A DNA stretch of 28,669 nt, taken from NCBI GenBank assembly GCA_034687125.1, contig JAQGBZ010000591.1, positions 1 through 28,669 of the forward strand, read 5' to 3'. The stretch comes from Neelides folsomi (lineage: Eukaryota > Arthropoda > Collembola > Neelipleona > Neelidae). This document shows, piece after piece, positions 21,838 through 28,669 of this stretch (within the stretch, counting starts at the first letter, position 1; every line of letters begins with the position of its first letter). Under the pieces are notes generated by a model, which saw only the letters and a list, made by a program, of their open reading frames with translations, did no database searches and was not told the DNA's origin. Made by a program: the position numbers and the translations under genes.

Positions 21838-23944
21838 TTATTGTCGGAGTTTTATGAGGGCGTTAAATTTCTTAGGTACATTGGCAATTCCAACTTCAGG
21901 AAATGGATCAGGCATTTGTTCCCCAGGTGGCAATTCAAAAGTATAGCGTTGCAAAAGATATGCAAAATAAGTAAAACTGGAAATTCTAGCTAAAACCTCA
22001 GCAGGACAAATTCGTTTTCCAGCTCCTATAAGAAAACATCAAAATTAATAAAAATTATATCCAATTGTATAACAATATTGTATAATAATATTCAATAATA
22101 ACAATAACATAAAACTCAAGACAATTAAATAAATTGACGTCACATACCAAAAGGCATTATTGTATCTTCATTGCAAATTTTTCCATCTTGGTCTAAAAAT
22201 CTTTCTGGTCGAAATTCTTCAGGTTTATCCCAAACATCAGGATTATTATGAATGTTCATTATATTTACAGCACAAATTGAGCCCTAAATGATTAAAAAAA
22301 CAATTTTTTTATTCCAAATAATTAAATTCTTTACAAATTAAATTCTAATTGAATTCTGCTTTATTATAAAAATAACATGTAATTTGAATATTTCATAAAT
22401 TATGATATTAATTACCTTAGGAACAAAACATCCATCAATTGTCGTATCTCTATCTGCATGTCTAACCGTCACAGGAATGAACGTCGCACGTCTCAGAACT
22501 TCCATAGCTGTTGCTTGAGTGTAAGGCATTCTCTCGTTGTCATTCATTGACGGAGGTCTCAAACGCCCAACAACGTCGTCAATTTCCTGTTGGCATTTCT
22601 TTTGGATTTCCGGATTCAAAATCATAAACATGACCAAATATTCAAGACTTGAAGCAGTTGTGATAAACCCAGTAATGAAAAGATCCAAACAGACCATGAT
22701 AAATTGTTCATCTATAAAATTAATTTAATTAATTAAAATGAAATTAATTATTTTAATTAATACCAACTTTAAGTAAATAATTATTAATTAATTAATTTAT
22801 AATTACCTGTGTAATAATTTGGATTGGCAGATTCTTTCTTATGTTTGTCAATTTCATATAAAAACGTGTCCATTAAATCCTCTTGGTTATTTTGATATTT
22901 ATTCAACGCTCGTCGTTCGCTGAGAACTTCTTGGAAATAAGCTTGGAGTTTGTAATGAGCTCCATACGCCGTGTGGACTTCGGTGGCTCCTGGAATGAAT
23001 CGAAGCCAAGGGAAAGCGATGAACGTCAACATTCTTGGATTCATCGTTGCGGAGAATTCGTCAATCAATCCGGTGAGTCTTTTCACTTTATCTGTGTCGT
23101 AAGGAAATCTCGTTCCCGCCACCATTGTCCAAAGGTTGTTAAGGACAGTGACGTTGAACAAAGTTTGCATCTTCACAACATCTCCATTTTCACTTCTTTT
23201 CTTGTCCAGGAAATTGAAGAAAATCCCAATTTCTTCTTCAAGATACAAATCCAATTTCCTTGTTCTTCCGTATCCGTATTTGGTTAAGGTTTTATGAACA
23301 AATTTTCGCATTTCCCGCCATCCTTCTCCATTTGAAACAAATAGACCTAAAACATAATTGGTTAATTAACATTTAAATAAATAAATATACCTATATAAAC
23401 ATTATATTGATTAAATAAACATTAATTTAATTAAATAATAAACATTTTAACTTTTAATATTTTTTATTTAAAGGTTGGAATTGAAATTACCTAGGTGTTT
23501 GTTGAAAGATCTTTTATACCACATTGGGCTTTCATCAACTCGATCAGCCCATTCTTCTGAACTTAAAATTTTCCGAGCCATGTGGATATTGTCACAAATC
23601 ACTATTTAATAAACATTTACTTAGTTAATTGTGATTAAATGCAATTATTAATCAATTTAATATTAATTAAAATGAAATTTTATTTGTTAATGTTCATTAC
23701 CTAAATAATATCTCCCAGCTTGAAGTGCCATTGTTGAACCCCATTTACTTGTGAATTCCCTAAACATGTCAAATCCTGGCTTAAGTCGATGGTTTTTAAT
23801 TAAACCCAAATGGAATAAACTTCCAATAATTGGGTAAATTGGTGGACCTGGAAGTAATTTCCGTTTTGGTCCTTTGGAACCCTTTAAGGCATAATAACAT
23901 ATTGTTCCAAATATTAATCCTAATAATAAATATCCTGAAATCAT
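21838..23944 (-). CDS. Cytochrome P450, microsomal, CYP2-clan-like, with an atypical I-helix
   Basis: Heme-thiolate monooxygenase of the ER membrane, dependent on NADPH-P450 reductase. Six exons read right to left: 23944-23701, 23601-23491, 23346-22807, 22711-22416, 22283-22148, 22025-21838; 1515 nt, 504 aa, full length. Seen: N-terminal anchor (LLLGLIFGTICYYAL), proline hinge LLPGPPIYPIIGS, C-helix W128-x3-R132, ExxR E369-V-L-R372, PERF-type FRPERF, and heme loop F442-GAGKRI-C449-PAE. In the I-helix the usual [AG]Gx[DE]T reads T312-G-F-I-T-T317: the acidic residue that helps protonate bound oxygen is Ile315. The PGPP hinge and the C-terminus resemble the CYP2 clan; I cannot assign a CYP family. 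It lies head-to-head, 1.4 kb away, with the fused terpene/prenyl synthase gene, making it a candidate tailoring enzyme (inference). Confidence 0.92.
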
Positions 23945-24056
23945 TTTTATTTAACTTTGAATATTAAATCAAACTTAAATATTAAATGTTGAGGTAGTCG
24001 GAGCTCCCAATTTGTTGTTTTATGAAGGCAAACGCTTCCCTTCTCTTTAACAAACG

Positions 24057-25343: not shown

Positions 25344-28321
25344 ATGAAGGACGTAAAAATTTTAAGTTCAAAAAATGTCCAAGGATATTTGTCAACATTT
25401 ACTGAAATGGTTTGCGACATGTTAGAAGATAAGAAATTTATGAATATGGGAATAACCAAACAATGGATTGCTCGACTTCTTTTTCAAAATGTTCCAAATG
25501 CTGAAGCACTTCAGTAAGATAATATTATTCAACCAAACGTCAATTAATTTAATAACATTTACTTAATTGTAATTTACTTAAATGTTATTTAAATTTTAGT
25601 GGTTTAGCTACAACAGTGGCTTATAAACATTTAGTCGAAAACCCTTCAGAGAAAAATCTCCAAGAAACTTATATTCTTGGTTGGTGCTTGCAAATGGTAA
25701 TTAATTAAATTGCATAATAAAATTAATTTTTTAACTACTTTAAATGAGGATTTTATTTTATGTTTAACATAATTTTAATTATTTATTATAAATTTTAGTA
25801 TGCAACTTGTTATTTTATTCTCGATGACATGTTTGACAAATCCAAAGAACGTCATTTCAAACCATGTTGGTATCTCGTTGACAACATGGGAAAGGAAGCT
25901 TTAAATGATGTCATTATTATGGAATCCTGTGTTTACTATTTAATCAAAAAACACTTTGAAACAAGAGAATTTTATCCTGAATTGGTCTCAACATTACACG
26001 ACCTGTCTTTAAAAATGGCAATGTCACAAACATTGGAAAGTAAATTGAGCAAAGATGAAAGTCTTGAGAGTTTTACAATGGAAACTTATAACAAACTTGT
26101 CAAATACAAAATGTGTTATTATCCTACCTATATTCATGTCAAAATAGCAATGCTTTTGGTAAGTAAATACACAAAAATTAATCTTAAAATTAGTTAACCA
26201 TTTAAGTAAGCCAAATTAATAATAAGTTTATAAACCGCGACTTTATAGGCGGGAATTAGAAACGAAGAGTTAATTAAAGAAACAAAAAGAATTTTCTCAA
26301 AAATTGATTTCCATTTTCAACCCCGCGATGATTTTTTGGATATTTATGGAGACAATGAAAGCCACGAAGCTGAAACCGGAAATGACATTGAAGAACGAAG
26401 ATGTAGTTGGATTATTTGCAAAGCATTGGAACTAGCAACCCCAAACCAAAAAACGTTATTAAAAGTAAAGTAGACATTCAATATACTTATAAAGTTTAAA
26501 AGGAAAACTTGATTATAAATTATAAGATTTAAATTAATGTTTTATTTCCATTTTAGGAAAATTATGGGAAAGGAGATTTTGCAAGTATTGAAACTGTTAA
26601 AAACTTATTTGTTGATTTGGGAGTTAAAGAACAATTTGAACAATATGAAAATTCTCAATATTGTGACATTCTTAACGAGATTGAGAACCTTAATGAAAAT
26701 CTTCCCAAGTCATTGTTTAAAGACATGATGTGGGCTTCTTTTCCAAATAAAATATCAACCCAATTAGGAGAGGGAAGTTCAAATGTCTCTCTGAATGATG
26801 TTAAGCGTTTGACAAAAAACATTCCCGATTTTCTTGGAATCTTTCCACAAATAATCGAAGATTTAATTCACGATCCACAAACATGTGAAGATTTGGGTGA
26901 ATTGAATTCCTCAATTAGTCGACTCATGTTGTACAATGTTCCACATGGAAAGAAAACAAGGTTTTATAATTAAATTACTAAACTAATTTTCATAATAGCT
27001 TTAATAATTTCCTAAATTTAAAATTCAAATTTTGAGAAAATTTATTTTTTAAATATTCAAGGGGTCTCACAATTGCATTTGCATACAAAGCATTGGGGAA
27101 TGAAGAAACTGAAGAAGCTGTGAAGAAATCTTACATACTTGGATGGTGTTTAGAGATGGTATTATAATTAATTTAAATATATATATAAGTTAAATAATCA
27201 AATAAATAATATTAACGTTCCTTTTTAAGCTCCAAGCTGCTGCATTAGTTGCCGATGACGTAATGGACAAATCATTAAAACGGCGTGGATTAACATGTTG
27301 GTACAAATTAGAAGAAGTTGGACTTTCTTCCTTAAATGATGCCATCATATTGGAATCATCTCTGTATCGAATATTGAAAAAGTATTTTAGCAATGAGGAA
27401 TATTATTTGCAACTTCTCGACCTCTTCCAAGACAACACGTTTAAAACAGCTTATGGTCAAAGTTTGGATATTTTAACTGGAACGGAAATGAACATTGACA
27501 CGTTAGAAATAACTTAATAATTAACTACTTAATGTTAATATACCAATATTAATATTAATGAATCAATTAAAGTTTAATTAATTGCAATAATTAATAAGAT
27601 ATGTTATATTTATATTAGATTTACAATGGAGCGATATACATCAATTGTGAAATATAAAACAAGTTACTATACATTTTATTTACCAGTGGCTTTATCATTA
27701 ACGATGGTAAAATAATAAAATAATAGTTTCTTAAATTTGAAATAACTGATTTGTAATTAAAAAAATATTATTTATAAAATTAAATATTTAAATTTAGAGC
27801 GGAGTCCAAGCCAAAATGTTCCTTGAACAAACCACAGCGTTTCTCCTTGACATTGGTCATTTTTTCCAAGTTCAAGATGATTATTTGGATTGCTTTGGAG
27901 ATTATGAAACTATTGGGAAAATAGGGACCGACATTGCAGATGGCAAATGTTCATGGTTGGTCGTCTCAGCATTAGAAATTGCGACTCAAGAACAACGAGA
28001 GTATATAAAGGTAATAACAAAAATTAATCTTTAATTTTATGCATCCTTGCAAATGATAATTATTTGTTTATTATGTTTAAATAATCATCTGATTTTTATT
28101 CCAATAAGGAAAACTACGGTAAAGGGCTGGCCAATCAAGAAAAAATCGACAATATGAAAAAACTTTATAGGGATTTAAAACTTCCCCAAAAATATGCTCA
28201 ATATGAAAATGAAACTTACGAATTACTTCAAAATACAATTGAAAATATTTCATTTGTCGAAGATGCCCACAAGAATTTATTTATTGAGATCTTAAAAACT
28301 ACTTATAAGCGAAAATCATAA
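25344..28321 (+). CDS. Fused two-domain isoprenyl diphosphate synthase (FPPS-like): N-terminal terpene-synthase-like half plus C-terminal prenyltransferase half
   Basis: Ten exons: 25344-25513, 25600-25696, 25799-26158, 26249-26464, 26557-26960, 27062-27158, 27230-27501, 27619-27706, 27798-28010, 28109-28321; 2130 nt, 709 aa, twice the usual ~350 aa of FPPS. Domain 1 (about 1-350): first Asp-rich motif DDMFD 98-102, second DDFLD 236-240. It lacks GKxxR (NAEALH, 52-57), has His108 for the second Arg after the first motif, Met194 for Thr, and Arg235 for Gln. Domain 2 (about 355-709): GKKTR 412-416, DDVMD 457-461 followed by R466-R467-G, KT 552-553, Q594-DDYLD 595-599, GKIGTD and KCSW, C-terminal YKRKS. 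Ala452-Ala453 replace the Phe pair of FPP synthases. Exon 26557-26960 is open across the domain junction. Known: domain 2 motifs are those of trans-prenyltransferases. Inferred: domain 2 makes a prenyl diphosphate, possibly longer than C15, and domain 1 ionises it to a terpene. Cytosolic; no targeting peptide seen. Confidence 0.92.
26740..26790 (+). other. Domain junction of the fused synthase
   Basis: Domain 1 ends with a segment matching the C-terminus of domain 2 (LFKDMM... versus LFIEIL..., ending near NKIS versus KRKS). It continues, with no stop, through a short Gly/Ser-containing linker ([11 protein letters not shown]) into the N-terminal helix of domain 2. Both lie in the same 404-nt exon, so no splice event is needed to join them. 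Confidence 0.85.
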
Positions 28322-28669
28322 GAAATTAACTTAATTAATGTTTCACGAGATTGTTTTTAGTATTATTTAAATACATATGATGTACGATTTAATATATATG
28401 TATACTGTATAATTTTATTAATTACTGATATATAATATAAAAACTTGAATATTACAAACTTTTATTTATTAACTTTTATTATTAAATACCAACAAAAACA
28501 ACAAAAGTTTTATTATTATCTAAATGAAGAATTAAATAAGGATAAACACTTTAAATTGACCAACTGACCAATAAAACAATAAAATGAATGGATCATTCTG
28601 TTATCTTTGTAAAATAAAAAAACTCCGACAATGTCGCATATTTCCCCAAAACTTAAAATCCGCGCACAG
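28322..28669. other. 3' flank of the fused synthase and right edge of window
   Basis: AT-rich 3' region. AATAAA occurs at 28571-28576, about 250 bp past the stop. From ATG 28584 a frame is open for 28 codons to the window end, starting MNGSFCYLCKIKK with a C-x2-C pair. It is too short to name; it could be a new gene's first exon or chance. Confidence 0.35.

Follow-up and report, generated by a model that had tools for sequence, protein, structure and literature searches.

Does a single gene of the springtail Neelides folsomi encode two complete farnesyl diphosphate synthase (FPPS)-type domains in tandem, and, if so, what might the resulting protein do? The question is raised by positions 25344..28321 (+) of the window, which is the whole of one contig (C591; 28,669 nucleotides) in an assembly of 75.1 Mb and 840 contigs, the one genome examined here. 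Rebuilt from the sequence, the two-domain gene has 10 exons (25344-25513, 25600-25696, 25799-26158, 26249-26464, 26557-26960, 27062-27158, 27230-27501, 27619-27706, 27798-28010, and 28109-28321), which sum to 2,130 nt and encode 709 amino acids plus a stop; the model agrees with the coordinates of the original prediction, which had claimed 709 codons in phase over ten exons. This splice model is based on sequence only. All nine introns (71 to 117 nt) have GT-AG boundaries, their GC content is 15% versus 33% in the exons, and retention of any one of the nine would introduce an in-frame stop. With a probability of about 2e-26 for 709 open codons at the exon base composition, the reading frame is not a product of chance. 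A Pfam search with the 709-aa protein recovered the polyprenyl synthetase family (PF00348) in two stretches (E value of 3.2e-117; 390.6 bits against a curated cut-off of 27), and this was the sole family matched. The DDxxD motifs begin at residues 98, 236, 457, and 595; hence, both sets of Asp-rich motifs stand where they had been predicted, and the rebuilt model and the two PF00348 stretches likewise bear out the claim of two complete FPPS-type domains in one frame. The gene model is real, intact, and in frame and has two domains.

The two halves meet within exon 5 (26557..26960), which, as had been predicted, is a single uninterrupted exon of 404 nt without an internal stop. It joins the counterpart of the last exon of domain 1 (D1) to the counterpart of the first exon of domain 2 (D2), merging the last-exon and first-exon equivalents of a single-domain gene. 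The BLAST alignment starts by pairing D1 residue 1 with residue 360 of the protein and ends at D1 residue 343, opposite the third-last turn of D2, while MAFFT extends D1 to residue 348, giving a linker of about 11 to 16 residues that comprises at least residues 349 to 359 (26758..26790, counted from the D1 end in the MAFFT alignment to the D2 residue aligned with D1 Met1). Either half is almost complete at the junction, with hardly any residues missing.

D2 (residues 360 to 709; 26791..28318), a prenyltransferase-like domain with a free basic C-terminus, carries the Asp-rich motifs DDVMD (residues 457 to 461; 27254..27268) and DDYLD (residues 595 to 599; 27876..27890). Its best solved match is 1ubx (328.6 bits), which has Ala-Ser at the positions of the capping phenylalanines, compared with 324.4 bits (E value of 8e-96) for the wild type, 1fps; these two chains, both of which we take to be avian FPPS, differ in length, and the gap in bits says little. 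Residue roles were taken from human FPPS as set out in the cited sections of two reviews (PMC4106277, PMC7815940) and mapped onto the sequences studied here by alignment, with the 1ubx chain as intermediary, K57, N59, R60, E93, Q96, R112, R113, Q171, K200, D243, K257, and R351 falling on the expected letters. We scored nine residues of the IPP site, namely, the direct contacts K57, R60, Q96, and R113, the contacts via water N59, E93, and R351, and the hydrophobic L100 and F239, and 12 residues of the allylic/Mg site, namely, the six aspartates, R112, K200, K257, Q171, T201, and Q240; R112 and K257 are counted here as allylic, and both are also described as having a water-mediated role in the IPP site (PMC4106277, PMC7815940). 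D2 has the site residues of an FPPS, with 12 of 12 in the allylic/Mg site and eight of nine in the IPP site; the single change, N59 to T, is common to paralogue D (see below) and the solved isoprenyl diphosphate synthase 8a6u. It departs from FPPS at the capping residues that set the C15 limit, the Phe98/99 positions being Ala-Ala. Human GGPPS is described as having Ala-Ser at these positions (PMC4106277), and the avian F112A/F113S mutant as yielding products of C20 and longer (PMC10563020) that stay under C50 (PMC7887238). Given this likeness, the product of D2 is probably C20 or longer, a chain-length reading that rests on two residues. Since the same positions are Ala-Ala in paralogues A and B, Ser-Ser in D, and Ser-Leu in 8a6u, the absence of Phe-Phe is by itself no proof of a longer product.

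D1 (residues 1 to 348; 25344..26757) is cyclase-like, with the allylic/Mg site mostly kept and the IPP site lost. Both Asp-rich motifs are present (DDMFD, residues 98 to 102, 25823..25837; DDFLD, residues 236 to 240, 26327..26341), and 10 of the 12 allylic/Mg-site residues are retained (the six motif aspartates, R112, K200, Q171, and Q240), the losses being T201 and K257, a residue for the allylic pyrophosphate. D1 does not have the IPP-binding residues of an FPPS: one of nine is kept, and none of the four direct contacts. At the positions of human K57 and R60 it has E54 and H57 (25503..25600), the codon of the latter being split by intron 1, and the R351 position lies in a region of weak alignment. 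The contrast between the two sites (Fisher p value of 0.0019) is descriptive, the D1 motif having been noticed before the residue list was chosen. Eight of the nine human-FPPS IPP contacts are thus substituted, a count over these contacts rather than over the published list of 15 IPP-binding-motif residues, which is reportedly that of Rebholz 2023. In the literature, insect IDS-derived terpene synthases are recognized by a lost IPP site together with both Asp motifs retained (PMC10962984, PMC12376265), and sobralene synthase is described as retaining three of 15 IPP-binding residues (PMC10962984). As its IPP site is lost while both the FARM (DDMFD) and the SARM (DDFLD) are kept, D1 appears to follow the residue pattern of these enzymes; given the loss of K257 and T201, it could also be weak or inactive. 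All 53 solved sequences matched by D1 at E values up to 0.001 are named as FPPS, isoprenyl, geranylgeranyl, or polyprenyl synthases, among them a plant monoterpene synthase-FPPS chimera. Neither these matches nor Pfam, which returns PF00348 only, place D1 with the cyclase half of the fungal terpene synthase lineage. The predicted order, cyclase-like first and prenyltransferase-like second, is supported at the residue level (10/12 allylic and 1/9 IPP in D1; 12/12 and 8/9 in D2).

The halves are 35% identical over 348 aligned columns (E value of 1e-80), and all four D1 introns are matched in D2 in the same place and phase, with one extra intron in D2. The original prediction implied a recent duplication, and in this it does not stand: a recent tandem origin of D1 and D2 is ruled out by the 35% identity, and their grouping as sisters in trees has a support of 56/46, with D1 on a long branch (1.4 to 1.6 changes per site). 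An intron at K|EN, considered as a mark common to D1 and D2, is also present in paralogues D and E. A clade of D1 with paralogue E (p-AU of 0.33) is neither shown nor rejected, and identities to the canonical FPPS gene of the genome, paralogue C, are 51% for D2 and 36% for D1. D1 and D2 may have arisen by an old duplication or by the joining of different paralogues.

A PF00348 profile search of the assembly found at least 20 exon matches on at least 8 contigs, and C591 alone among the matches found has two motif sets within 3 kb. Gene models place paralogues A and B next to each other on C468, C on C364, D on C275, and E, a divergent single-domain FPPS-like gene whose second motif is DDFTE, at L015:1442-3717 (C42); an FPPS-like remnant with an in-frame stop lies at L016:2876-3158 (C177). 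The IPP site is complete in A, B, and C (nine of nine each), with eight residues kept in D and one in E, and the allylic/Mg site is complete in A to D (12 each), with nine residues kept in E. Paralogue C, with Phe-Phe and both sites intact, is likely the true FPPS of the genome, and E, in which the IPP site is also lost, is a second terpene-synthase candidate. By eye and from their motifs, open reading frames (ORFs) on C319 and C26 presumably correspond to the PDSS1 type and to GGPP synthase, respectively.

Several other loci of the assembly touch on terpenoid metabolism. At 23.07 to 42.1 kb of C468 (L041, L009, L017, L010), two divergent pairs each set a match to squalene/phytoene synthase (PF00494) on the minus strand beside the Ala-Ala-type A or B on the plus strand, an arrangement suggestive of a terpenoid gene pair that was duplicated. 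Here, a 560-aa stop-to-stop frame (L010:1260-2942, about 37.26 to 38.94 kb of C468, minus strand) has two joined regions, of which residues 104 to 217 match the end of a solved drimenol synthase/HAD-family protein (9m7d, 9mhs; E value of 3.5e-5) and residues 224 to 541 match 3wca, named a farnesyltransferase (E value of 1e-46), squalene synthases (from 3e-41), and PF00494; this is perhaps another fused terpenoid enzyme. In the window itself, cytochrome P450 exons (PF00067; 22338-22724 and 22784-23365, minus strand; locus 22338-23950) are divergent to the two-domain gene, at a distance of about 1.4 kb if the P450 starts in the ORF 23687-23950, for which Pfam gave no match. A 254-aa open frame on C415 (L021:1382-2146, minus strand) matches the terpene synthase family PF19086, of bacterial type, with 82 bits and was possibly acquired horizontally. 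A 2-oxoglutarate oxygenase at C223, considered as isopenicillin N synthase, is closer to other members of its family and is therefore no springtail marker. The only COX1 match of the assembly is on C742 (15,157 bases), which by eye has ORFs for nad2, cox1-3, atp6, and nad3 and in which ARAGORN predicted 22 tRNAs, 21 of them with an amino acid assigned (Asn being absent); Leu(UUR) lies between cox1 and cox2, which we take to be the pancrustacean order. A mite origin, suggested by the bacterial-type terpene synthase (PMC12105342, PMC6275457), is set aside on account of this order; a search for the Blo t 5 family gave nothing, and neither did its controls. Squalene-synthase-like genes are present in the assembly, and the C-terminal domain of squalene-hopene cyclase was not found in it. 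Insects had been believed to be without the triterpene genes, and squalene synthase is reported from Folsomia candida and as absent from two other springtail genomes searched (PMC11321324).

Taking the two halves together, we propose, with somewhat better than even confidence, that the gene product is a single bifunctional terpene enzyme in which the prenyltransferase D2 feeds the cyclase-like D1. In such an enzyme, the C-terminal D2 would extend allylic diphosphates with IPP and, having an opened chain-length pocket, might reach products of C20 or longer, and the N-terminal D1 would take an allylic diphosphate, most likely the product of D2, ionize it with the kept Asp/Mg cluster, and then cyclize or quench it, since IPP should no longer bind there. 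Held together by the short tether, both sites would belong either to a pseudo-dimer formed within one chain or to FPPS-like dimers strung into a chain; the former, D1:D2, is the built-in heterodimer of the original prediction, which is possible. The basic C-terminal tail of human FPPS is described as closing on IPP binding, with the terminal carboxyl pairing with Lys57 (PMC4106277, PMC7815940), from which it follows that the IPP-using half should be the C-terminal one. Indeed, D2 alone has a free C-terminus, whereas the tail of D1 continues into the linker, and D1 lacks Lys57 and, to judge from the weak alignment in this region, also the tail Arg.

Parallels are offered by several known systems. 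The fungal fusicoccadiene synthase PaFS has the same order, an N-terminal cyclase and a C-terminal prenyltransferase in one chain, both of the alpha-fold, but joins them by about 70 residues (PMC8190136), whereas both halves of the animal gene are of the FPPS type, 35% identical, and more closely tethered. Hence, an animal cyclase-prenyltransferase fusion, convergent with the fungal bifunctional terpene synthases, is our best reading of the sequence. The insect IDS-derived terpene synthases (sandfly sobralene and nephthenol synthases and flea-beetle TPS) are, like D1, FPPS-like with both DDxxD motifs and a lost IPP site, but are described as separate proteins rather than fusions (PMC10962984, PMC12376265), sobralene synthase being a homodimer by native mass spectrometry (PMC10962984). 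In the springtail Folsomia candida, the terpene synthases are said to resemble those of flea beetles (PMC6275457). Animal FPPS is closely matched by D2 and differs from the two-domain protein in having one domain per chain, capping phenylalanines, and an IPP site such as D1 has lost. In the heterodimeric polyprenyl diphosphate synthase HexA/HexB, two unequal subunits likewise act together (PMC7839719), but as separate chains, whereas here the halves are covalently joined and D1 has kept its aspartate motifs.

The proposed enzyme has to be weighed against readings in which the halves are not one protein. D2 could be transcribed as a gene of its own from an internal promoter, for which the in-frame ATGs at codons 338/339 could provide the start of a D2-only protein and an AATAAA at 26746, just 5' of the junction (one of 17 AATAAA/ATTAAA hexamers in 25344-28669), an end to D1; the related A and B are, moreover, separate neighbors. 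However, D1 has no stop of its own, and a stop in the exon frame would arise only if intron 4 or 5 were retained, in which case D1 would be truncated or part of D2 taken in. Further, the halves are separated by some tens of coding nucleotides, with exon-like GC (42/46/23% by codon position over codons 340 to 365), and we consider two genes improbable. An assembly error uniting two paralogues appears to us very improbable: the contig is short (28.7 kb), the gene ends 348 nt from its end, and the junction is seen once, but the error would need an in-frame join inside an exon that left the D1 C-terminus and the D2 N-terminus nearly whole, and an unjoined copy was not found in the assembly. Searched as DNA against the assembly, exon 5 matched its own locus and no second copy or allele that would confirm or contradict the junction.

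Other readings accept the single chain and assign D1 a different role. It might be noncatalytic or regulatory, tuning the chain length or stability of the catalytic half, as if the two subunits of a heterodimeric prenyl diphosphate synthase had been covalently joined. The long D1 branch, the agreement of D1 with 38 of the 67 columns that do not vary among the seven other sequences, and the loss of K257 and T201 are consistent with this, and one subunit of HexA/HexB may set chain length; yet, both Asp motifs are credited there to the catalytic subunit HexB (PMC7839719), and D1 has retained all six motif aspartates with R112, K200, Q171, and Q240, which makes such a role rather unlikely in our view. 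Alternatively, D1 might not be a cyclase but an irregular coupling enzyme, linking the D2 product with a second prenyl chain into branched terpenes of the kind carried by springtail cuticle. It has an ionization site and lacks the normal IPP site, and we know of no residue that marks irregular prenyl coupling. Springtails do produce the prenylated open-chain terpenes viaticene and nitidane (PMC11321324, PMC11129290), but the ubiquinone pathway has been suggested instead as the source of the cuticle terpenes (PMC11321324), and coupling by D1 seems distinctly unlikely.

Returning to the bifunctional enzyme that we favor, no animal two-domain IDS protein is listed within the reach of our literature searches, and unpublished or unannotated homologues could exist. 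If expressed as one protein, it would be an apparently unreported animal architecture, in which one chain unites two FPPS-type halves, one a prenyltransferase and the other terpene-synthase-like; bifunctional prenyltransferase-terpene synthases are already known, and the new element would be FPPS-type halves in an animal. If this is true, the fungal assembly-line layout would have re-evolved from different parts with an identical domain order, and the protein would readily lend itself to testing whether the intermediate is channeled by tethering. Springtail cuticles are described as bearing linear [7-9]-terpenes (C35 to C45), some of them head-cyclized and others prenylated (PMC11321324, PMC11129290), and the cited portions of this literature name no dedicated enzyme for the epicuticular terpenes. 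Speculatively, a prenyltransferase with an opened pocket and a cyclase-like partner fused to it would be a candidate source of such products. More specifically, D2 might build a chain of C20 to about C45 whose head D1 cyclizes or couples, an independent animal invention from FPPS twice over, although we hold this version to be doubtful. The two-domain gene, if expressed as one protein, is a concrete candidate for the making of springtail cuticle terpenes.
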